A stretch of DNA of 20,943 bases, taken from positions 1-20,943 of IMG/VR virus record IMGVR_UViG_3300047550_003386, one strand, 5' to 3'. Under the pieces are notes generated by a model, which was not told the DNA's origin, ran no database searches, and was given only the letters and a program-made list of their open reading frames with translations. Shown piece by piece: positions 1 to 20,119 of this stretch. Both the position numbers and the translations under genes were made by a program. The stretch comes from a virus. The first letter of the stretch is position 1, and every line of letters starts with the position of its first letter.

Positions 1-202
1 GTTTTATCAATTCTTTTTTTAAAGACCCAAGACTGATCGGTGATGATTTTTCAACTAATTTATTTTCTTTTTCTGGTGCTTTATAATTTTCAACTTTAAT
101 ATCATTTTTATTAATATTTTCAGTATTAAAATCACCAATTAAATTTTGAATACGATCTTTTAATTTTTGAGGGACTTTATTTTTTGATTTTTTTAGTTCC
201 AT
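1..202 (-). CDS. N-terminus of unidentified tail gene, possibly tape measure (partial)
   Basis: The ATG is at 202-200 and directly follows the TAA stop (205-203) of the -1 frame downstream of gp26. The 67 visible residues (beginning MELKKSKNKVPQKLKDRIQ) are open to the window edge. They are very rich in Lys, Glu and Asn with almost no aromatic residues, and look like a charged, partly helical or disordered leader. I recognise no motif. The order tube protein, gp26 chaperone-like gene, frameshift extension, then this gene is the order in which long-tailed phages usually place the tape measure protein, so that is my guess from position only. In T4 the genes after 26 and 51 are 27, 28 and 29, so another hub protein is also possible. 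The gene sits last in the visible minus-strand operon and has only a weak purine-rich stretch before its start. Confidence 0.7.
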   Translation of the reverse strand, partial: MELKKSKNKVPQKLKDRIQNLIGDFNTENINKNDIKVENYKAPEKENKLVEKSSPISLGSLKKELIK

Positions 203-373
203 TTACATTTTACTCTTTTCTTTTTCTACATCCACCCTCAGTTGCTCCACATATAGATCTCTTTCCCAGGGAAGCATCCCCTCTAAATCTGCTAGATTAA
301 ATCCGTAATTTTTTGTTAAAATATACATTAATTCAAAATAGCTTCTAAGAGATATGTGACTGAGGGTTATGAA
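203..373 (-). CDS. -1 frame extension of gp26 (tail-chaperone T-like segment)
   Basis: An open frame of 56 codons overlaps the end of gp26 in the -1 frame and stops at TAA 205-203. Its conserved-looking core is SYFELMYILTKNYGFNLADL followed by a Leu-Pro-Trp-Glu-Arg motif near the middle, then an acidic/basic helix. The aromatic and helical pattern and the size resemble the T part of G/GT tail chaperones and short proteins found after gp26 in T4-like phages, where T4 has gene 51. The only internal ATG (328-326) would give 41 residues, has no Shine-Dalgarno sequence before it, and would cut the pattern SYFELMYIL in half. I therefore think it is made as a fusion with gp26 (about 283 residues) by frameshifting. 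Independent initiation at 328 is the alternative. The sequence here is locally GC-richer than its surroundings because it also forms an RNA stem. Confidence 0.65.
   Translation of the reverse strand, partial: FITLSHISLRSYFELMYILTKNYGFNLADLEGMLPWERDLYVEQLRVDVEKEKSKM
234..367 (-). promoter_or_regulatory. Long bulged RNA stem-loop downstream of slippery site
   Basis: In minus-strand RNA the 21-base arm at 367-347 pairs in full with the region 263-234 in three blocks: 9 bp (367-359 with 242-234, ACCCTCAGT against ACTGAGGGT), 7 bp (358-352 with 254-248) and 5 bp (351-347 with 263-259). The only interruptions are 3'-side bulges of 5 bases (247-243) and 4 bases (258-255). The loop is 83 bases and contains a small GC-rich hairpin candidate (GGGATGCTTCCC). 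The stem begins five bases after the heptamer, within the usual spacing for a frameshift stimulator. Twenty-one pairs with one arm uninterrupted is hard to explain by chance in such AT-rich DNA. Confidence 0.65.
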
Positions 374-1053
374 AAAAAATCTTTAAGATTTTTTAATACT
401 ATTGATCTTTTAACTCCATCCTGTGTTGTATAATAAACTGTGATCGGACATGATGGCATATTTTCAAAAAATTCAAGTATTTTTTTATAATATTGAATCG
501 TCAAATGATCTAAAAAGTCAATTATTTCTTCTTTAGAAAAATTAGAAGCTTCTACCTTTTCTTCAGAATTTTCGAAATATAAAATACAATTTGATATGAG
601 ATCATTTATATTATTACTAGATTCTGAAATATCACTTACAGTTGGATATCTTAATTTGATTTTAAGATCTTTTCCTATTTGTATAATATTTTCTTGTTTT
701 GGTATGTCCAATTCTAATTTATTTAAATCTATTTCAATAATATGATTTTCTTTAGTTATTGGGCATGTAATTTTTGGAGTGATGATTTCACCAACAGATT
801 TTGCTCTTAATTTTAAAAAACAATACTCGACTTCAAAAATTGGTATTTTAGTAAAATCAATATTATCGTAACAAGAATTTAAGACCTCAATAATACCATT
901 ATAAATTTCTTTTTTATTGGATGTTTCTTCCAATATTAGTAATTTTTTTTCTTCTTTAACTAAAAAAGGTCTAAATTTAGTCTTTATTTTAGTATAGGGT
1001 AAAGATGTTATATAAGAAGGTAGAGAATTATGTAAAATAGTTTGTAAATTCAT
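367..1053 (-). CDS. 26: T4 gp26-family baseplate hub / tail assembly chaperone
   Basis: This 228-residue protein matches the T4 baseplate protein family of gp26 (T4 gp26 is about 208 residues). The clearest signature is the segment TKFRPFLVKEEKKLLILEE near residues 25-43, followed by a helical stretch with Asn-Ser-Cys (residues 58-61) and a region around residues 85-110 with the Cys-Pro-Ile-Thr pattern. In T4, gp26 is assigned to hub assembly. The context here, between a tube protein and a likely tape measure gene and with a -1 frameshift signal at its 3' end, suggests it works like the lambda G / P2 E chaperones that coat the tape measure before the tube polymerises. Start ATG 1053-1051 follows the tube gene stop by six bases and has only a weak GGA upstream. 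The family call is firm; the chaperone role is inferred. Confidence 0.85.
   Translation of the reverse strand: MNLQTILHNSLPSYITSLPYTKIKTKFRPFLVKEEKKLLILEETSNKKEIYNGIIEVLNSCYDNIDFTKIPIFEVEYCFLKLRAKSVGEIITPKITCPITKENHIIEIDLNKLELDIPKQENIIQIGKDLKIKLRYPTVSDISESSNNINDLISNCILYFENSEEKVEASNFSKEEIIDFLDHLTIQYYKKILEFFENMPSCPITVYYTTQDGVKRSIVLKNLKDFFS
373..379 (-). promoter_or_regulatory. Slippery heptamer T TTT TTT for -1 frameshift
   Basis: On the minus strand gp26 ends GAT TTT TTT TCA TAA. The eight T lie at 379-372, and the first seven form T_TTT_TTT in the gp26 frame, which fits the X_XXY_YYZ pattern of -1 slippery sites. A one-base slip reads TTC ATA ACC and continues 56 codons in the frame of the extension, bypassing the gp26 stop at 369-367. 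The run is four codons from the gp26 stop. A stable stem begins five bases further on. That frameshifting occurs is inferred; the run, the frame and the spacing are read directly. Confidence 0.65.
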
Positions 1054-1059
1054 TTTTTA

Positions 1060-1647
1060 TCATCCATTCAATAAATTATAAGAATTTCTATAAGCTAATG
1101 TTAAAACAAATGTCGTATATCCAGTATTATCGGATGACATTTGTATAGGTAATAAATTTAATGGGTATGCTTCATCTAGTAGGGTTTTTGAAGTAATACT
1201 AGTATATGTAGTAGCCTGAGCGGAACCAGAAAAAGTTGTTATGTAAATTTTACCAACATAGTCAAAATATACATTAGCATTTTCAGTGACTGCTTCGCCA
1301 TAAGATCCTTTTCTTATGATATTGTCCATCCATGCATCAAAAAAATTCTTTTCTGCAAAATCTTCATATAAAACAAAGGACATTGTAATTTCATCAAATT
1401 CATGCTGAAGTGGAATTTTTCTTTTTGTTCCCCATAAAGAAGTAGGCATTCCAGTTTCATAGGTCATCAAAGCTCTTTGTGGTATGTTTATTTCTGAAGG
1501 ATATGTGGTAAAAGATCCATGTGGGGTCACAAAATCAACAACATATCTGTTTGCAAATTGAACGCCACCACGATTTACTACATTATTTCTAAATTGAGAT
1601 ATTGAACCTGAAATAAAATCATCAGGTACTTGTGGATCTGGTATCAT
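1060..1647 (-). CDS. T4 gp19-family tail tube protein
   Basis: The 195-residue product has the layout of the T4 gp19 family: an N-terminal region with ANRYVVDFVTPHG (residues 31-43), the IPQRALMTYE strand, the EFDEITMSFVLYEDFAEKNFFDAW block and a C-terminal FVLTLAYRNSY strand. Members form hexameric rings with the tube fold, either as the main tube (gp19, 163 residues in T4) or as baseplate-proximal rings (gp48, gp54). The length is close to gp19, but the position beside gp4 and gp26, rather than beside gp18 and gp20 as in T4, leaves open that this is a second, initiator-type tube protein (gp54-like). Start ATG 1647-1645 overlaps the gp4 stop (ATGA) and has an AAGGA Shine-Dalgarno at 1657-1653. 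Confidence 0.85.
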   Translation of the reverse strand: MIPDPQVPDDFISGSISQFRNNVVNRGGVQFANRYVVDFVTPHGSFTTYPSEINIPQRALMTYETGMPTSLWGTKRKIPLQHEFDEITMSFVLYEDFAEKNFFDAWMDNIIRKGSYGEAVTENANVYFDYVGKIYITTFSGSAQATTYTSITSKTLLDEAYPLNLLPIQMSSDNTGYTTFVLTLAYRNSYNLLNG

Positions 1648-2078
1648 AATAGTTCCTTTTCCGTGAGAATTATGAAATTAATGTCATTTTTATCACAAAA
1701 ATCTTTAGCAGCTTCCCATTTTGCTTGATTTATTAAAAAAGTTTCCATATTCTTAGAATAAGTTTTTTTTGAAATAGATTCTGTCATTATTGGTTGCTTC
1801 GTCTGTTTAAAGGGTTTAACTTCTATGAGTAGGGTTGAAACAGACCCATCTTTGTTTCTTTTCTCTGCCAAAAAATCTGGTATATAAAAATGCATTTGGC
1901 CATCTAGTGGTGATTTATATGGAATTTTAATATTTTCAAAAGACCAACGTAAAATATTTTTATTTTCATCTAAATATTTACAGAATTTTCGTTCCCATAG
2001 TGATCTACATAATATTTTTGTAGAATCACCTATATATTTTGATATGTTTTTAGGTAAAAATTTATTTTTATAAGCCAT
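1644..2078 (-). CDS. 4: Head completion protein gp4 (gp50/gp65 family)
   Basis: The 144-residue protein opens MAYKNKFLPKNISKYIGDS, nearly the same layout as T4 gp4 (MAYSGKWVPKNISKYRGDP), and is almost the same length (about 150). The fold is endonuclease-like, and several conserved elements are visible: RSLWERKFCKYLDEN (residues 26-40), IPDFL (about residue 67), LLIEVKPFKQTKQP (about residues 82-95) and the ending FIILTEKELL. The Asp, Glu and Lys in PDF and IEVK are the nuclease-like positions. In T4 gp4 acts on the filled head before tail joining. I start at ATG 2078-2076 rather than the TTG three bases upstream because the family begins MAY. No Shine-Dalgarno is seen. It is the first gene of the minus-strand set, 19 bases from the divergent gp48-like gene. 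Confidence 0.93.
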   Translation of the reverse strand: MAYKNKFLPKNISKYIGDSTKILCRSLWERKFCKYLDENKNILRWSFENIKIPYKSPLDGQMHFYIPDFLAEKRNKDGSVSTLLIEVKPFKQTKQPIMTESISKKTYSKNMETFLINQAKWEAAKDFCDKNDINFIILTEKELL

Positions 2079-2097
2079 CAAATTATTTAGTTAAAAA
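2079..2097. other. 19-base divergent gap between gp4 and gp48-like gene
   Basis: The two oppositely oriented operons begin on either side of this gap, which is too short to contain two promoters. Any promoter must lie inside the opposite gene. No exact TATAAATA is seen near it; TATAAGCC (2070-2077, plus strand) and CTAAATAA (2090-2083, minus strand) are weak look-alikes. Neither start codon has a clear Shine-Dalgarno sequence here. Confidence 0.5.
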
Positions 2098-3958: not shown

Positions 3959-6900
3959 ATGGCTGGAAATTTTCCATTTGCGATAGAATCATTATCCTCA
4001 CTTCAAATAATAAAACAATCTGGACAATCACTTAATATAATTCCCTGGGGTTCTGGATTGAATCCACTCATTTCATTTACTTTAAATGAAAGTATGTTTT
4101 CACCTTTGATGACAGGTACATTAATCATACGAGATACTGGTGATTGGTTAAGAACATATGGTGTTAAATCTAGCGATGAAATTAGATTTAATTTAAAGGC
4201 AAAAAAAGTTTCTGGTATTTTACATAGAGATAGAGATGAATCGATTATCAAAAATTATGATATGACATTTGAGATTACAAATGTAAAAAATACAGTTACA
4301 TTATCATCAGATGAGTATCAGACAGAAACAGAAACAATAAAAGCATTAACTATAGAATTTATAGCTAAAAATGTTTTAAATAAAGAATTTTTATCATCTG
4401 CTCTTGAAACTGAAAATTTTATAGGACCAATATATTCGGACGAAATTGAACGAAAAACTTTATCTGGAGAAGTACCAACATCAGTTGAACTTATTGGATT
4501 TAACAAATATCTTAAACAAAAATTTAATATTAAATTGGATGGTGATCGTACATTTAATTATTGTTATTTAAAAAGAAATAATATTTCATATCCCTGGGGT
4601 AAAATTCAAGGACAACCAACAATTCTTCAAACATTACAGTATCTTGCAGAAAATGCTGTTAGCAATGATAATAATGCCGCTGTTAATTATGTATTTTGGC
4701 AAGATTTGGATGGATTTCATTTTAAATGTATCGATTCGATGATCAAAAATAGTAGTGATTCTGAGGATAAAAGATTTGTAATCGGAGAATATCAATTTGC
4801 TCCAAATAATATTCATTCCTTTGAAACAATAAGTGAATTTGATAATTTAAAACTTTTAAATTCTAATGTATATTATTCTTGGTATGAAAGAATAATTCCA
4901 AACTATGAGGATCCGTATCTAGATTTTGTAAGTACATCAGAGGGATTAAAAAGAGAAACTATCTTATTTGATATTCAAGATGAATACAATAATATATCGC
5001 ATGTTGAAAACACTCCAATAATAACTTTAAATTCAAGTTCAAATTCTGAATTATCACAAAGCCAGAGAATTGATGATGATGTCTATGGATTTTATTCAAA
5101 TCAAAGATACAATACACCATTTCCACAATCATGGGAATATATTGGTCTTTCCGCTGATACAAGATCATCAAGTAGTGTTTGGCAGAATCAATTTGATCTT
5201 GATAATGAAGTAAAACCAGAAATAATTTATGCCTATGATAAATTAATTAAAAATGCTTCTTTACGAAATAGAGAAAAATTCATAGAACTTAAAAATTTAA
5301 AGAAAAAATGGGAAGTTTATCGATGTTCTATTTGTTGCACAGAAGATACTGCAAACGAAGAAGATAAAAAAATAAAAAATATTGGTGCTAACGATCCAGA
5401 TTATAATTTATATTTTGGACCAAATGGTATATTTAAAGAATTTGCATTTGATGAATATAAAATTGTCGCGGCTGGATCATTTTCTGATGTTGTGAATTAT
5501 GAAAAACCAAAATCAAAAGAAGAAAATAATGAAAATTTACAACCATGTATTGAAGTTGCACCAGAAGAAGAAAATCAAGAAGATGAAGAATATAATGGAT
5601 TAACTTTATCTTATGATATGAATTCACTCCCATACAATCAATCGATAAAAGATTTTTACAATTTAGATTCTGCATTGGTTTCAAATATAGGTACATTATC
5701 CGGTATTAAACAAAAATATCAAAGTGAATTATCTGAAGTTAATACATTGATTCAAAAAATAGAATCATTATTGGGTAAAATAGATGGATGGATTACTGGT
5801 GCTGCTGATTTAGCATTTCAGAATTTAACACCATATCCAAGATATGATTGTAGACGTTTTGGACCACCAATAAGAGAGGAAGGTACTAATTGCTGTATAG
5901 ACATGGGTATCGCTGGCAGTATAGATCCAGAGGACGAAGATTATAATCAAGAATATCAAGAATGTGTTAATTATTATGGTGAAGAATTAGGTAACTTGCA
6001 AGACGTACAAACTGTAGATTGGAATTTTGATTCAGTGAGAATTCCATATCTTCATTTAACACACGCATTTAACCCATTGGATGGTGAAAGGAGAGAAATG
6101 GAATTTGGAGATCAATTCTGTTATCCAGTTCCAGATTCGGAGGTCAGAAATGTATATAGAGCACCCCTGTATGTAAATTTAGAATATAGAACAAAACAAA
6201 ATATTCCAGATGATTATACTGGATCAGCTCGTTTTTTAGTTAGATATGATCAAACCAATGGTTATGTAACAAAAGCAGGGTGTAAACGATTTGTTGATGG
6301 TCAAATGGCATGGGAATTACCTTATAAGGAACCTGGGTTTTTATATGAATGTACCCAATCAAAACTTATAACTGGCTTATATACAAGTAATAATAAAACA
6401 AGAGAACCAGCACCAGATGATGATTTTTATATTACAAGATTAGAACAAATACAAGATCCTGTATTAAATGGACGTATTAATAGTAAACAAGTTTTTTGTG
6501 CTACATGTTTAGATTTTATTTCATTGGAAGGAGCAAAATACGAATATAAAAAAGTACTAAATGAAAAAAAATTGAAAAGATTTATTTTAGAGACATTAAT
6601 TAATAAAATTACTAGTGTTTCAGCATCTTATGCAGCATATTATAATGAATTTTTAAATAGAAAAGCTTTTTTCATATCAAAAAATCCATTTGACCCAGGA
6701 GTAACAGGAAATATTGTAAATAAAAAAACAAATTTATCTTTATTTAATATTAAATCAATTAAAAGAAAACCTATTCGCGGAAGCAAATATGAAGTTTTAG
6801 CAAATAGAATTGGAATAACTAGCGGTAAAAAATCCTATGAATATGATGTATTTTTTGGTATTTCTGCTGGTGATAGAGATCCAGCGTTACCAGGAAACCA

Positions 6901-9214
6901 TCCATACTATGATCAGAAATTTAAAGGATTTACATATGATTCATATAGTTATGGGGCATATGCATCAAAACCTGGATTTAATATAAGAAAATATGATACA
7001 GAAGATATATTATATTATGACGATGACTTGTCGAGATATGAAGGAACTCCTGGATTTAATTCTGATGTATTCAAATCAGTGTCTGGAACTATTTTTTCTC
7101 CAGTTGAATTGAAATATGAAAATCAAATTACACAAGATTCTAGCTTTAATCTTTCAAATAATATAGGCTCTTTAGATCTAGCTACCAATAGATTAAATAT
7201 CTTTAAAGAAAATTCAACAAAAATTCCATCAATAGAAAAAGAAAAATTAAGTTCTTATGTTAGAATTGAATTTGAAAGCCCTATAGGTTTAGATAGTTTA
7301 GAGGATTTTCCAGATGGATTTGTTCGTGATGCTGGATCTGAATATTTTTTACCATATCTTGTTCAACTAACTGGTGGTCCAAATGGAAGACAAACAATTC
7401 AAAATAATACCGTTGTAATTGGTATGGATCCTTACGGATTTGATGTTGCTGTAAAGAAAAATAGAACAAAAAATAATTATTCTGATTATAAGGAATGGGG
7501 TAATTATTGGTGGTATAAACCTTTAAATCAAGTAAGATTAGATATAAAAACTAAAGATATACCTGATATGTCTTTATGGGCAGAGAGAAAATTTGAAAAT
7601 GAATATACTTTCTACCAAAATAATGGAGAGTACATATCAACAATAGGTGAAGATTTTACGGAATATGATAATTATTTTGGAACATTCAGTCCACTTTATT
7701 ATGGTCCAGCTACAACTATTCCATTGACTAATGTAGAATGGCATCCAGAAAATGTATTCACTTCTAATGTTTATTTTAATTATTATGATTATGATGCTCC
7801 TTCTTATAGTGCTTATGGTTATTATGCTGATTATTATACTGTTGGATATTATGGAGGATATTATTTAAATAATGTTAAAAATATGACAAGATTTCCTACA
7901 AGCCAATATTTTCGTATATTACAAAATTTGATAAAAACATACAAAGATGATTCAGAATTGTATATTAATGTTGGAAGTAAATATAAAATAGAAAATAGAT
8001 GTATAGAAAAAAATATAAATTTAAATAATTTTAAATATGGTTCTTATAATTTATTAGGTTCACATTTACATTATAATACAAGAAGAAGTTGGTATGATTT
8101 AAATTATAAAATTATAACTAAATTAAATACTTTTATTGATAATATTGGAACTATTAATAATTTAAGTAATGCTATATTTAATAGAGGATTTGATTATATT
8201 GCAGGTTTTGCTCCTTTTGCTGGGGGGATCCCAGTACCAACAATTTTTAAAGCACCAGATTTTTATGCTTATTCTGGAAATGATTTTGTGAGTAACTTTG
8301 CAAATGTTATAAAATTAAAAGATAATCAACCTTTAAAAGCTTTTTTAGCTTCAATAAATAATAATAATGTCATTACTAGTGATATCTCTAGTGTAGACAA
8401 ATTAACTTTATTAAATAAAACAGCAATAACTTTACAGTCAATATTTGCTGATGAAATAGAAGCTCAACATGATACAAGTTTGACAATTTACAGACCTGGA
8501 TTAGTTACATCAAAGGTATGGAAATATGATATATTTGGTGAATCCGAATATGGATTAACTTCACCACCGACTTTACCCCCAGAATATGATTTATTTGATA
8601 ATAACTTCGCGGCACAATTCGTTGTTTATGGAAAACAATTAAATTTATGCAAGCAATTAAATCTAAAATGTCTAAATCCACAAGGATATGTTGATAATCA
8701 AGATTGCCCAGACAATGATCCTTATTGCAATTGCCCAGCTAAGAATCTGATTCCAAAACAAGCAGAACCATCATATAAACAGTTAGCTTCGGCATATCAA
8801 ACAACAAAAGAATGTAAATTAATCTCAGATAATTTAGGATGTGATTATCTTGGATGTATGCTTTCTGATCCAGAGAATGTTACTTCTTGCGGATGCCCAT
8901 CACAAGGTGAAAATTATCCAAAATTGTTATATGCAATTCGCACAAATGCAACATTTTACAATACTCCACCAGAAACACCACTCAGAAGACAAGCACAAAT
9001 GTCACTAATTACTGGTCAACAGGCAGTAATGACAATCTATCCAAATGATTCATTAAAGATAGGTGATATTATAACTGTCTTTAGGGGAACTGCCGTAGAT
9101 GGAAAAGACTCTATAAATGGAAAATGGATGATTACTGGAATCACTAGAATATTTAAATCTATTAATATAGAAATTATGGTAGTTAATTTAGCCAGAGATT
9201 CAACAAAAATATAA
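3959..9214 (+). CDS. Giant gp27-like baseplate hub protein with large insertion
   Basis: At 1751 residues this is by far the largest gene. The N-terminal part (about 1-400) looks like the first half of a gp27-type hub ring: FTLNESMFSPLMTGTLIIRD, then IRFNLKAKK, a strand-rich region, and PWGKIQGQPTILQTLQYLAE. The last 90 residues resemble the second half of gp27 (DSLKIGDIITVFRG, then SINGKWMITGITRIF and a final strand). Between them lie about 1250 residues with no T4 counterpart, including a Cys pair region (456-460, 645-646, 847-850), a block LEDFPDGFVRDAGSEYFLPY (from about 1115), a Tyr-rich stretch (1271-1305) and a ten-cysteine cluster (1564-1646). T4 gp27 is 391 residues. Marine T4-like phages often carry large structural proteins here, so a decorated hub is my reading. 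No lysozyme motif is visible, unlike T4 gp5. Start ATG follows gp53 by one base. Confidence 0.75.
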   Translation: MAGNFPFAIESLSSLQIIKQSGQSLNIIPWGSGLNPLISFTLNESMFSPLMTGTLIIRDTGDWLRTYGVKSSDEIRFNLKAKKVSGILHRDRDESIIKNYDMTFEITNVKNTVTLSSDEYQTETETIKALTIEFIAKNVLNKEFLSSALETENFIGPIYSDEIERKTLSGEVPTSVELIGFNKYLKQKFNIKLDGDRTFNYCYLKRNNISYPWGKIQGQPTILQTLQYLAENAVSNDNNAAVNYVFWQDLDGFHFKCIDSMIKNSSDSEDKRFVIGEYQFAPNNIHSFETISEFDNLKLLNSNVYYSWYERIIPNYEDPYLDFVSTSEGLKRETILFDIQDEYNNISHVENTPIITLNSSSNSELSQSQRIDDDVYGFYSNQRYNTPFPQSWEYIGLSADTRSSSSVWQNQFDLDNEVKPEIIYAYDKLIKNASLRNREKFIELKNLKKKWEVYRCSICCTEDTANEEDKKIKNIGANDPDYNLYFGPNGIFKEFAFDEYKIVAAGSFSDVVNYEKPKSKEENNENLQPCIEVAPEEENQEDEEYNGLTLSYDMNSLPYNQSIKDFYNLDSALVSNIGTLSGIKQKYQSELSEVNTLIQKIESLLGKIDGWITGAADLAFQNLTPYPRYDCRRFGPPIREEGTNCCIDMGIAGSIDPEDEDYNQEYQECVNYYGEELGNLQDVQTVDWNFDSVRIPYLHLTHAFNPLDGERREMEFGDQFCYPVPDSEVRNVYRAPLYVNLEYRTKQNIPDDYTGSARFLVRYDQTNGYVTKAGCKRFVDGQMAWELPYKEPGFLYECTQSKLITGLYTSNNKTREPAPDDDFYITRLEQIQDPVLNGRINSKQVFCATCLDFISLEGAKYEYKKVLNEKKLKRFILETLINKITSVSASYAAYYNEFLNRKAFFISKNPFDPGVTGNIVNKKTNLSLFNIKSIKRKPIRGSKYEVLANRIGITSGKKSYEYDVFFGISAGDRDPALPGNHPYYDQKFKGFTYDSYSYGAYASKPGFNIRKYDTEDILYYDDDLSRYEGTPGFNSDVFKSVSGTIFSPVELKYENQITQDSSFNLSNNIGSLDLATNRLNIFKENSTKIPSIEKEKLSSYVRIEFESPIGLDSLEDFPDGFVRDAGSEYFLPYLVQLTGGPNGRQTIQNNTVVIGMDPYGFDVAVKKNRTKNNYSDYKEWGNYWWYKPLNQVRLDIKTKDIPDMSLWAERKFENEYTFYQNNGEYISTIGEDFTEYDNYFGTFSPLYYGPATTIPLTNVEWHPENVFTSNVYFNYYDYDAPSYSAYGYYADYYTVGYYGGYYLNNVKNMTRFPTSQYFRILQNLIKTYKDDSELYINVGSKYKIENRCIEKNINLNNFKYGSYNLLGSHLHYNTRRSWYDLNYKIITKLNTFIDNIGTINNLSNAIFNRGFDYIAGFAPFAGGIPVPTIFKAPDFYAYSGNDFVSNFANVIKLKDNQPLKAFLASINNNNVITSDISSVDKLTLLNKTAITLQSIFADEIEAQHDTSLTIYRPGLVTSKVWKYDIFGESEYGLTSPPTLPPEYDLFDNNFAAQFVVYGKQLNLCKQLNLKCLNPQGYVDNQDCPDNDPYCNCPAKNLIPKQAEPSYKQLASAYQTTKECKLISDNLGCDYLGCMLSDPENVTSCGCPSQGENYPKLLYAIRTNATFYNTPPETPLRRQAQMSLITGQQAVMTIYPNDSLKIGDIITVFRGTAVDGKDSINGKWMITGITRIFKSINIEIMVVNLARDSTKI

Positions 9215-17363: not shown

Positions 17364-17861
17364 ATGCCATCAGCAAGCAATACTAGTAACAGCTCAAATA
17401 TTTCAACTCCTTTATTAAATTTCAATGTTCAAAGTGAACTAGGTTCTAGATTACTTGTTCAAATACAAACAAATAATTTTTCTGGTTTCACTGGTGGAGA
17501 TGTAATACGTTATGATGTCCCAACAAGTGGATACACTTTAGCAAAGGCCGACACAGCATCAAATTCTGAAGTTTTTGGAATAGTTGAAGATAAAGAAGAA
17601 CCAAATTTATTAAATGTTGTCATTTATGGTTCTATTAATTATCCTACAGAAAAATTAGTAAATGATACTGGAACTAATTATGGTGGAAATGATGTTTATT
17701 TTCTAAGTGCTTCTGATGCAGGAAAATTAGTAAATATACCATCCACGACGATAGGAAATATAGTTAAACCAATATATCAAGTAGGGCCACATCTCACTCT
17801 TACGGGGTTAGCTGCCACTGGTATTGTTGTAAATTACGTAGGATATGTAATACAGGAATAA
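17364..17861 (+). CDS. Small fibre-associated protein with single repeat module
   Basis: The 165-residue protein is almost entirely one beta module: GFTGGDVIRYD (41-51), ADTASNSEVFGIVED (62-76), VVIYGSINYPTEKLV (85-99), GGNDVYFLS (107-115) and a final IVKPIYQVGPH strand (133-143). The same order of motifs is found at the N-terminus of the next protein. The N-terminus is Ser/Asn rich and probably flexible. It could be a separate fibre tip, an adaptor between fibres or a fragment left by recombination. The start has GAGGT (17354-17358) overlapping the previous stop. It is intact, with no sign of decay. Confidence 0.75.
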   Translation: MPSASNTSNSSNISTPLLNFNVQSELGSRLLVQIQTNNFSGFTGGDVIRYDVPTSGYTLAKADTASNSEVFGIVEDKEEPNLLNVVIYGSINYPTEKLVNDTGTNYGGNDVYFLSASDAGKLVNIPSTTIGNIVKPIYQVGPHLTLTGLAATGIVVNYVGYVIQE

Positions 17862-17866
17862 TTTGA

Positions 17867-20119
17867 ATGTCATCAAATTCTATATTTCCGATAAGTAAAC
17901 AATCAATTATAGTTAATCCATCTTCTAGATTAATTATAAAATTACCAGTAAATACTTTTGATTCTGGAATAACTGGTGGCGATGTCATTCGATTTGATAC
18001 CGTTGGAAATAAATACAAAAAATCTCTTGCGGATACTTCATCCAACGCAGAAGTATTTGGTATTGTTGAAAATATAAACAGTGATGGTTCAGCGAATGTT
18101 GTTATTAATGGATCCATAAATTATCCAGAATCTAAGCTAGTAGATAAAGCAGTAGTGGGTGAGGAAATTAATCTAGGTGGAAATGATGTTTATTTTTTAA
18201 GTGGTTATACTGCTGGGTTATTGGAAAATAGAATAACAGATGACAAAATTGTTATAAAACCTTTATTACAAAAAGCTCCTCACGGCGCATATAATGGAAT
18301 TTTTAGAAATTATCTAGGATATAAACAAGGAAATATAAATTCTTCTGTTATAGAAGATCAATTTTTTGTTTCTTTTTCTGATGATTTAACTAAACTTATA
18401 ACAGTATCAGTAAATTTAGACAAAGTATTTGTATACAGCATATCTTATTCTTCTTTAGTATTCACTACCACTTTATTAGATACTATTGAATTTAATACTT
18501 TATCTGGTGATTCTATAGAATGGGATACAGAAACAACCGAAGCAAAAATTTCAAATAATGGTTATGATATTTTAATTTTTACAAAACAAAATAATAAAAT
18601 ATTTCATATAAACAGACAAATTGGTATTCAACTAAAAGCTCAAATAGATGCTGATTTGACAGGAAATGCAGTTGATAAATTATGGGCAGTAGATGATGAA
18701 TTATCATCAATAGCCCTTTCAACTGTTGCTATGAATAGAGATCCAGATCCAGATGATATGAAATTAACATCCAGAGATGTAACTTCTCGTATAAAATATT
18801 TAAGAAGAAAACCAGATGGAAAAAATAAATTTAATTGGAGTATTATAAACGAACATACTGTTCCTGGTTTTTTATTAGCAAATCCATTTCCTGCTTTGCC
18901 AAAACAAGATTCGTTAGGTTTAGTTTTAGGTGTTTTTAGGGCAAATAATATTAAATGTAAAGGTAAAAATTATATTTTAACGACAAAATGTTTGATCCAA
19001 GATCAGAAAGAGTATAAATCAGCTGCAAATGGGCCAAGAAGCTCAAAATATAATAACTCACAATTTGATTATATGGATTTATATTCAAAAACTATTACAT
19101 ATAAATTTGGAAGTGATATAGATGCATCAAATAATCCTATATATGATTCATTCACAATTAAAGATCATAATATGTTTATTGATGGTCATCTTGTATATAC
19201 ATCTCCATCCGATCTATGGTACTCTGAAAGTAATATCGATGCTCCAAATTTAACACAAAAAATTTTAACAGCATTTCAAGATAATGTTAATAATAAAAAA
19301 TATAAATGTTATTTTGGTATTAAAAATTTTAAAATAGTCAATAAAAAAAATAACAAATATTTAGATGATCCTTCGTGTTTAGGTTCTAATTCTTTTGCAT
19401 ATTATCATCCAATTGAATACCGAGAAGGTCATTATAGAAATGATTTTGAGAACTTTTATCCATCTGGAATTACATTTTTAACAAAATTAACTCCACAAAC
19501 AAGATCTTTATCGCGCATAAATGCATCACAATATAATCAAAATGCTTTATTTTCGAGTGGTTCTTGTAGTGATACTTTTTTTGTTATTGGTTTATTATAT
19601 GAATCGATTGATACTACTAATAATGACATAAATAAAAAATTTGTGGTTTTAAAGTTTCCATTAAATTCTTATGAAAATGATTCAGTTTTTGATTATTTTC
19701 AATATAGTACAACTTATAATTCTGTTATTCCTAGCTTGTCAGGATATGGAATAATTTCATCATTTTATACTGATGCATTTTCAGAAATTACAAATTTTTG
19801 GACAGCACCATCTACCACTACTAAAGGACCAATAACAGATAATCCAACTTTTCCTGTAGATACACAATTAACATCTGTCAATATAAATCAATTAAATTCA
19901 TTTGAATTACATACATCTAATGATAGATACTTTTTATGTACATCAACATATACATTAATATGGACCTATTCATCTGGAACATATGTAATTAAAGATATAG
20001 CAGATTTAGATCAATATAAATTTTCATATAGTGCAGATGGTGAGTTTTTTATAAAAAATAATAAAATTTTAAGATATGATTCAGGGACTCAAGAATTTAT
20101 TAATATTACTGTTGTATAG
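17867..20119 (+). CDS. Fibre protein with repeat module and beta-propeller-like body
   Basis: The 750-residue protein begins with the same module as its upstream neighbour (about 34-155: GITGGDVIRFD, AEVFGIVEN, VVINGSINYPESKLV, GGNDVYFLS). The remaining 590 residues contain phrases typical of propeller blades: VSFSDDLTKLITVSVNLDKV (168-187), KISNNGYDILIF, FVIGLLYESID, FELHTSNDRYFLCTSTYTLI and finally YKFSYSADGEFFIKNNKILR near the C-terminus. I therefore suggest a WD40- or YVTN-like propeller as the host-contact body, but the blades in the middle are irregular and I cannot count them. It could also be another beta-rich fold. No catalytic motif is visible. The start lies five bases after the previous stop. 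Confidence 0.7.
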   Translation: MSSNSIFPISKQSIIVNPSSRLIIKLPVNTFDSGITGGDVIRFDTVGNKYKKSLADTSSNAEVFGIVENINSDGSANVVINGSINYPESKLVDKAVVGEEINLGGNDVYFLSGYTAGLLENRITDDKIVIKPLLQKAPHGAYNGIFRNYLGYKQGNINSSVIEDQFFVSFSDDLTKLITVSVNLDKVFVYSISYSSLVFTTTLLDTIEFNTLSGDSIEWDTETTEAKISNNGYDILIFTKQNNKIFHINRQIGIQLKAQIDADLTGNAVDKLWAVDDELSSIALSTVAMNRDPDPDDMKLTSRDVTSRIKYLRRKPDGKNKFNWSIINEHTVPGFLLANPFPALPKQDSLGLVLGVFRANNIKCKGKNYILTTKCLIQDQKEYKSAANGPRSSKYNNSQFDYMDLYSKTITYKFGSDIDASNNPIYDSFTIKDHNMFIDGHLVYTSPSDLWYSESNIDAPNLTQKILTAFQDNVNNKKYKCYFGIKNFKIVNKKNNKYLDDPSCLGSNSFAYYHPIEYREGHYRNDFENFYPSGITFLTKLTPQTRSLSRINASQYNQNALFSSGSCSDTFFVIGLLYESIDTTNNDINKKFVVLKFPLNSYENDSVFDYFQYSTTYNSVIPSLSGYGIISSFYTDAFSEITNFWTAPSTTTKGPITDNPTFPVDTQLTSVNINQLNSFELHTSNDRYFLCTSTYTLIWTYSSGTYVIKDIADLDQYKFSYSADGEFFIKNNKILRYDSGTQEFINITVV

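Follow-up and report, generated by a model that had tools for sequence, protein, structure and literature searches.

Gene organization around gp26

The window, that is, the whole stretch of 20,943 nucleotides analysed here, comes from a virus record that is a 20.9-kb fragment and not a whole genome. A homologue of T4 gene 26 is found on its minus strand, together with the following genes and features.

2081..1644, minus strand: gp4-like head closure protein
1060..1647, minus strand: tail-tube-like protein, 5' of gp26 (phrog_45, tail tube, E=2.7e-15)
367..1053, minus strand: gp26 homologue of 228 aa, putative short form (TAC-N; PF12322, E=5.8e-49; phrog_150, E=9.3e-51)
373..379, minus strand: slippery heptamer T_TTT_TTT, in frame, read from the sequence (T_TTT_TTN in 122/122 distinct non-T4 relatives)
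367..369, minus strand: zero-frame stop codon of gp26, read from the sequence
203..373, minus strand: -1 frame extension of 56 codons plus stop (TAC-C, cyanophage "gp51"; phrog_634; frame conserved in relatives)
2..202, minus strand: next gene, likely tape measure, running off the window (complete counterpart in the relative L006)

The order of these genes, tube-like gene (1060-1647), gp26, extension and tape-measure-like gene, is the placement expected for a tail assembly chaperone; in phage lambda the order V, G, T, H corresponds to tube, short chaperone, extension and tape measure. The complete gene of 312 residues that follows the extension in L006 (3839-4777) matched PHROG tape measure families (E=2.4e-5), and a short tail is expected if this gene is the whole tape measure. 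For Cr30 and HTVC008M, the annotated tape measure lies two genes further downstream. A tape-measure-like stretch, GGVVKEPTVAYLHENEAVIPL, was noted within the 312-residue L006 gene, 3' of gp26-51.

The closest gp26 from an isolate shows about 36% identity by tblastn. The window phage, which is uncultivated, is a new and distant member of the known T4-like frameshift chaperones.

Slip site and -1 frame extension

The 3' end of gp26 reads GAT TTT TTT TCA TAA, and the T run is eight T long (379..372). The -1 frame ends at 203, with the next ATG only one base on (202), and the predicted fusion consists of 227 plus 56, or 283, residues. The sequence-only reading had described this heptamer, the frame, its length of 56 codons, the span 203-379 and a fusion of 283 residues, all of which were reproduced from the sequence. 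It had also described a single possible ATG in the -1 frame, devoid of a ribosome site. Three in-frame ATGs are in fact present (extension codons 16, 33 and 56); the first of them (codon 16) does lack a Shine-Dalgarno-like site at the usual distance.

By profile search, the extension matched phrog_634, "baseplate hub assembly catalyst" (E=2.9e-14), and no Pfam match was obtained for it. Both parts of the locus thus match profiles of the T4 gp26/gp51 family, gp26 through PF12322 and phrog_150 and the extension through phrog_634. Matches by tblastn were obtained for gp26 in 492 phage records (limit 1e-3) and for the extension in 507 (limit E<=10), mostly from Synechococcus and Prochlorococcus phages, and among the matches listed the two share an overlap of a few bases in most records that have both. 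The extension is what cyanophage annotations call "gp51"; in database records it is given as a separate gene, often from an internal ATG, or omitted. Frameshifting would explain why many cyanophage records list "gp51" as a baseplate gene of its own.

Conservation of the slip site among relatives

For comparison of the junction, loci were taken from viral contigs and isolates, and gp26 was found in 161, giving 123 distinct junctions. The heptamer T_TTT_TTN was present in frame within the final codons of gp26 in 122 of these, the sole exception being T4, which is far beyond chance expectation. The -1 frame was open in all 122, nearly always for 53-70 codons; two frames were shorter (15 and 42), three of the 122 ran into the end of the stretch, and the few short frames are, at least in part, truncated at contig ends. 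The comparison of gp26 3' ends that the sequence-only reading had called for bore it out, slippery run and open -1 frame being kept in 122/122 distinct non-T4 junctions.

Protein conservation in the -1 frame begins at the slip, with His at residue 6 (113/122) and Leu at residue 9 (116/122), followed by the conserved Pro-Trp-Glu-Arg motif; these conserved residues precede any common ATG. The position of the first ATG in the extension varies from phage to phage (codon 3, 15, 18, 19, 32 or others), and a Shine-Dalgarno-like site stands before it in just two of 120 cases. All 96 non-redundant genomes use TTT for the first Phe of the run, while 72% of the other Phe codons of gp26 are TTT. The invariant run, the conservation starting from the slip, the variable ATGs without Shine-Dalgarno-like sites and the TTT bias altogether fit a reading in which translation passes into the -1 frame at the run, rather than starting independently.

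These observations bear on the possibility that the small gene is translated by itself, through re-initiation or coupling at an internal ATG. Such an arrangement is the one annotated in the records, separate gp51 genes from internal ATGs being given for instance for Mosig and HTVC008M, and termination with nearby restart is frequent in phages. A start that shifts from phage to phage and lacks a Shine-Dalgarno-like site in 118/120, residues conserved ahead of that start and an invariant slippery run all argue against it. A broken run combined with an independent start, which according to the sequence-only reading would speak for a separate gene, was seen nowhere within the frameshift group, and T4, which lacks the run, has a long form that is a true fusion. 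We consider independent translation of the small gene very improbable.

The fusion could also arise from slippage of RNA polymerase on the T8 run, since eight T, as in the window, are perhaps sufficient for some polymerase slippage. In 61 of the 96 non-redundant genomes, however, the run is six T followed by C, which is short for the polymerase but a canonical site for -1 slippage by the ribosome. The run also keeps a fixed codon phase, and RNA structure downstream of it is in excess, as described below. Slippage of the polymerase in place of the ribosome is thus regarded as extremely improbable.

Shine-Dalgarno-like element upstream of the run

In 77% of the 96 genomes, one of the sequences AGGG, GAGG, GGAG and AGGA starts 9-20 bases 5' of the run, compared with 8% at other positions of gp26 (p ~3e-61, with the genomes treated as independent though they are related). 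Where the element lies over a Glu-Gly pair, Glu is encoded by GAG in 43/56, against 27% elsewhere (p=4e-14), indicating that the element is not explained by the protein alone. The window and its closest relatives (L001, L004 and L006) encode Lys-Asn at this position and lack the element. No association was detected among the relatives between absence of the element and stronger RNA structure (Mann-Whitney p=0.57).

RNA structure downstream of the run

The 120 nt after the run showed a mean z of -2.20 against dinucleotide shuffles, while five other intervals gave -0.09 to -0.65 (n=112). Against synonymous codon shuffles the z value was -2.05, with control intervals at about -0.4. Two kinds of structure were observed 3' of the slip, a local hairpin (for example, GTATGGCTCA...TGAGTCATAC) or a long-range stem, and some relatives show neither. 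The local hairpin, with at least 7 consecutive pairs in register, was detected in 16.7% of relatives versus 2.9% after exchange of arms between genomes, and pairing of the bases after the slip with the Pro-Trp-Glu-Arg codons, about 100 bases on, in 17.7% versus 6.8%, a level reached in 0/500 exchanges. Because the exchanges ignore relatedness, both comparisons overstate significance somewhat. Among 20 sequences picked for long-range pairing, two-sided changes were found in 11 cells versus 3.1 expected. An Rfam search found nothing relevant.

For the window, the following two arms are predicted from RNA folding and pair counts.

347..367, minus strand: predicted stimulatory stem, 5' arm, beginning five bases past the heptamer
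234..263, minus strand: predicted stimulatory stem, 3' arm, in segments 258-263, 248-253 and 234-242

This stem (367-347 / 263-234) is interrupted, with 21 bp in three runs of 9, 6 and 6 pairs and a folding energy of -40.6 kcal/mol (z -3.2). Among six relatives, the arms are 86-100% identical to the window, while identity of the loop falls from 90% down to 54%; conservation of third codon positions is likewise 0.86-1.00 in the arms and 0.44-0.78 in the loop. A single compensatory pair, C-G to G-C, was found in the window's clade (L102 and L103), and 13/500 shuffles scored as high. Covariation being thin, arm conservation and folding energy are the main support for the stem. These sequence data argue well, though not conclusively, for selection on the RNA itself in the arms, which also code for protein.

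Upstream element, T run and downstream structure resemble the -1 frameshift cassette of E. coli dnaX, which consists of an upstream Shine-Dalgarno element, a slippery run and a downstream RNA structure. Most of the relatives are of this type. The run is poly-T in the T4-like phages and poly-A in dnaX, the stem of some relatives, and of the window too, closes 80-100 bases and is not a local hairpin, and the window, unlike dnaX, has no upstream element. It is rather probable that a cassette of up to three parts drives chaperone frameshifting in T4-like phages: a Shine-Dalgarno-like element (mostly GAGG) 9-20 bases upstream, the T run, and an RNA structure from about 5 bases downstream, which would be a local hairpin in some lineages. 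Elsewhere, as in the window, it would be a long-range stem enclosing 80-100 bases of the extension, with its far arm at the conserved Pro-Trp-Glu-Arg codons or immediately beyond them.

T4 genes 26 and 51

In T4, genes 26 and 51 are separate and on opposite strands, whereas the window carries a single gp26-extension locus. T4 gene 26 reads GAG TTC TTT GAG at the position of the run and thus, unlike gp26 of the window, has no slippery run. Both T4 gp26 and gp51 matched PF12322, and phrog_634 was matched by gp51 only, in its C-terminal half; the profile of the extension aligned to T4 gp51 (residues 209-245, E=2e-4) but gave no alignment with T4 gp26. By these profile matches, T4 gp51 is the counterpart of the whole frameshift product and T4 gp26 that of the short product, and T4 would accordingly make both forms from two genes. 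In 1,334 phage records, a single site matched T4 gp51 over 80% or more of its length. The frameshift arrangement is retained in Aeromonas phage Aswh_1, which belongs to T4's family (Straboviridae). T4 gene 26 (L012:4303-4929) ends Lys-Glu-Phe-Phe-Glu-Leu-Leu, and its sequence at the place of the run looks as if duplication into genes 26 and 51 had been followed by loss of the slip site.

Predicted fold and chaperone function

The gp26 protein and the extension were folded as separate chains by AlphaFold. The gp26 model (mean pLDDT 91.6) gave no significant Foldseek match. When the Foldseek candidates were realigned with VIA-align, the top match for residues 1-97 was the HK97 chaperone 2ob9 (Z 7.9, with Z<8 being the chance-prone range), followed by 3fgx (Z 7.6) and YqbN, 3klu (Z 6.6), both within that range; the fourth match was at Z 5.0 and the remainder below 3. 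We take 3fgx and YqbN to be prophage proteins of the tail assembly chaperone type. No significant PDB match was found for the extension model (pLDDT 82).

The proposal of the sequence-only reading that gp26 is a tape-measure chaperone of the G/GT type is supported by the comparative sequence data, the gene order, the division of labour between T4 gp26 and gp51 and the predicted fold. The tail assembly chaperone would then, as in lambda G/GT, have a short form, gp26, and a long form, gp26-51. The locus is in this respect like lambda gpG/gpGT and P2 E/E+E', for which a short product and its -1 extension are encoded between the tube and tape measure genes (PMC5009743). The heptamer of the window differs from the slippery heptamers of both systems, and gp26, with 228 aa, is larger than their short forms, with more protein beyond the chaperone-like domain.

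We propose that gp26 encodes the short form of the chaperone and that a minority of ribosomes, held up by the RNA stem with its 5' arm starting five bases past the heptamer, slip back one base at T_TTT_TTT (379..373). These ribosomes would read 56 more codons to yield the long form of 283 residues. On the model of lambda gpG/gpGT, the short form would coat the tape measure protein, the product of the gene immediately downstream, and the C-terminal part of the long form would recruit tail tube subunits; in T4 the two proteins would come from the separate genes 26 and 51. We put the probability of this reading as a whole, a short chaperone extended by a -1 slip with the aid of an RNA stem, at about 0.9. 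Production of both tail chaperones from one gene is thereby supported in a lineage far from any isolate.

The 2022 abstract of Vladimirov, Gautam and Davidson is said to name genes 26 and 51 and to describe frameshifting as conserved in several T4-like groups. The frameshift chaperone reading for T4-like phages is thus already published (Vladimirov, Gautam and Davidson 2022, as represented in papers citing it). T4-like chaperone genes (TAC-N/TAC-NC) carry poly-T slip signals according to papers citing this work (Virology 2022, 566:9-15), and some T4-like phages produce the short and long chaperones from two genes, with no frameshifting, according to the statement in PMC10885494 that cites it (Vladimirov, Gautam and Davidson 2022). 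In a 2016 review T4 was still given as the exception (PMC5009743). No earlier report of the upstream Shine-Dalgarno-like element and the downstream RNA structure was found, the 2022 Virology paper being represented here by papers that cite it; the novel part seems to be this element before the slip and the structure after it. With conserved signals flanking the slip, the T4-like frameshift becomes directly testable in reporter assays.

Other tail genes in the window

A single tail protein of 1751 residues is encoded at 3959-9214 on the plus strand. It is much bigger than a typical baseplate hub protein, and its best-scoring phrog_350 stretch (E=2.4e-22) covers residues 222-350 only. Further along the plus strand, the adjacent genes at 17364-17861 and 17867-20119 encode proteins with similar N-termini (GGDVIRYD / GGDVIRFD, EVFGIVE, INYPE), and this similarity suggests that a tail or fibre domain was duplicated in tandem.
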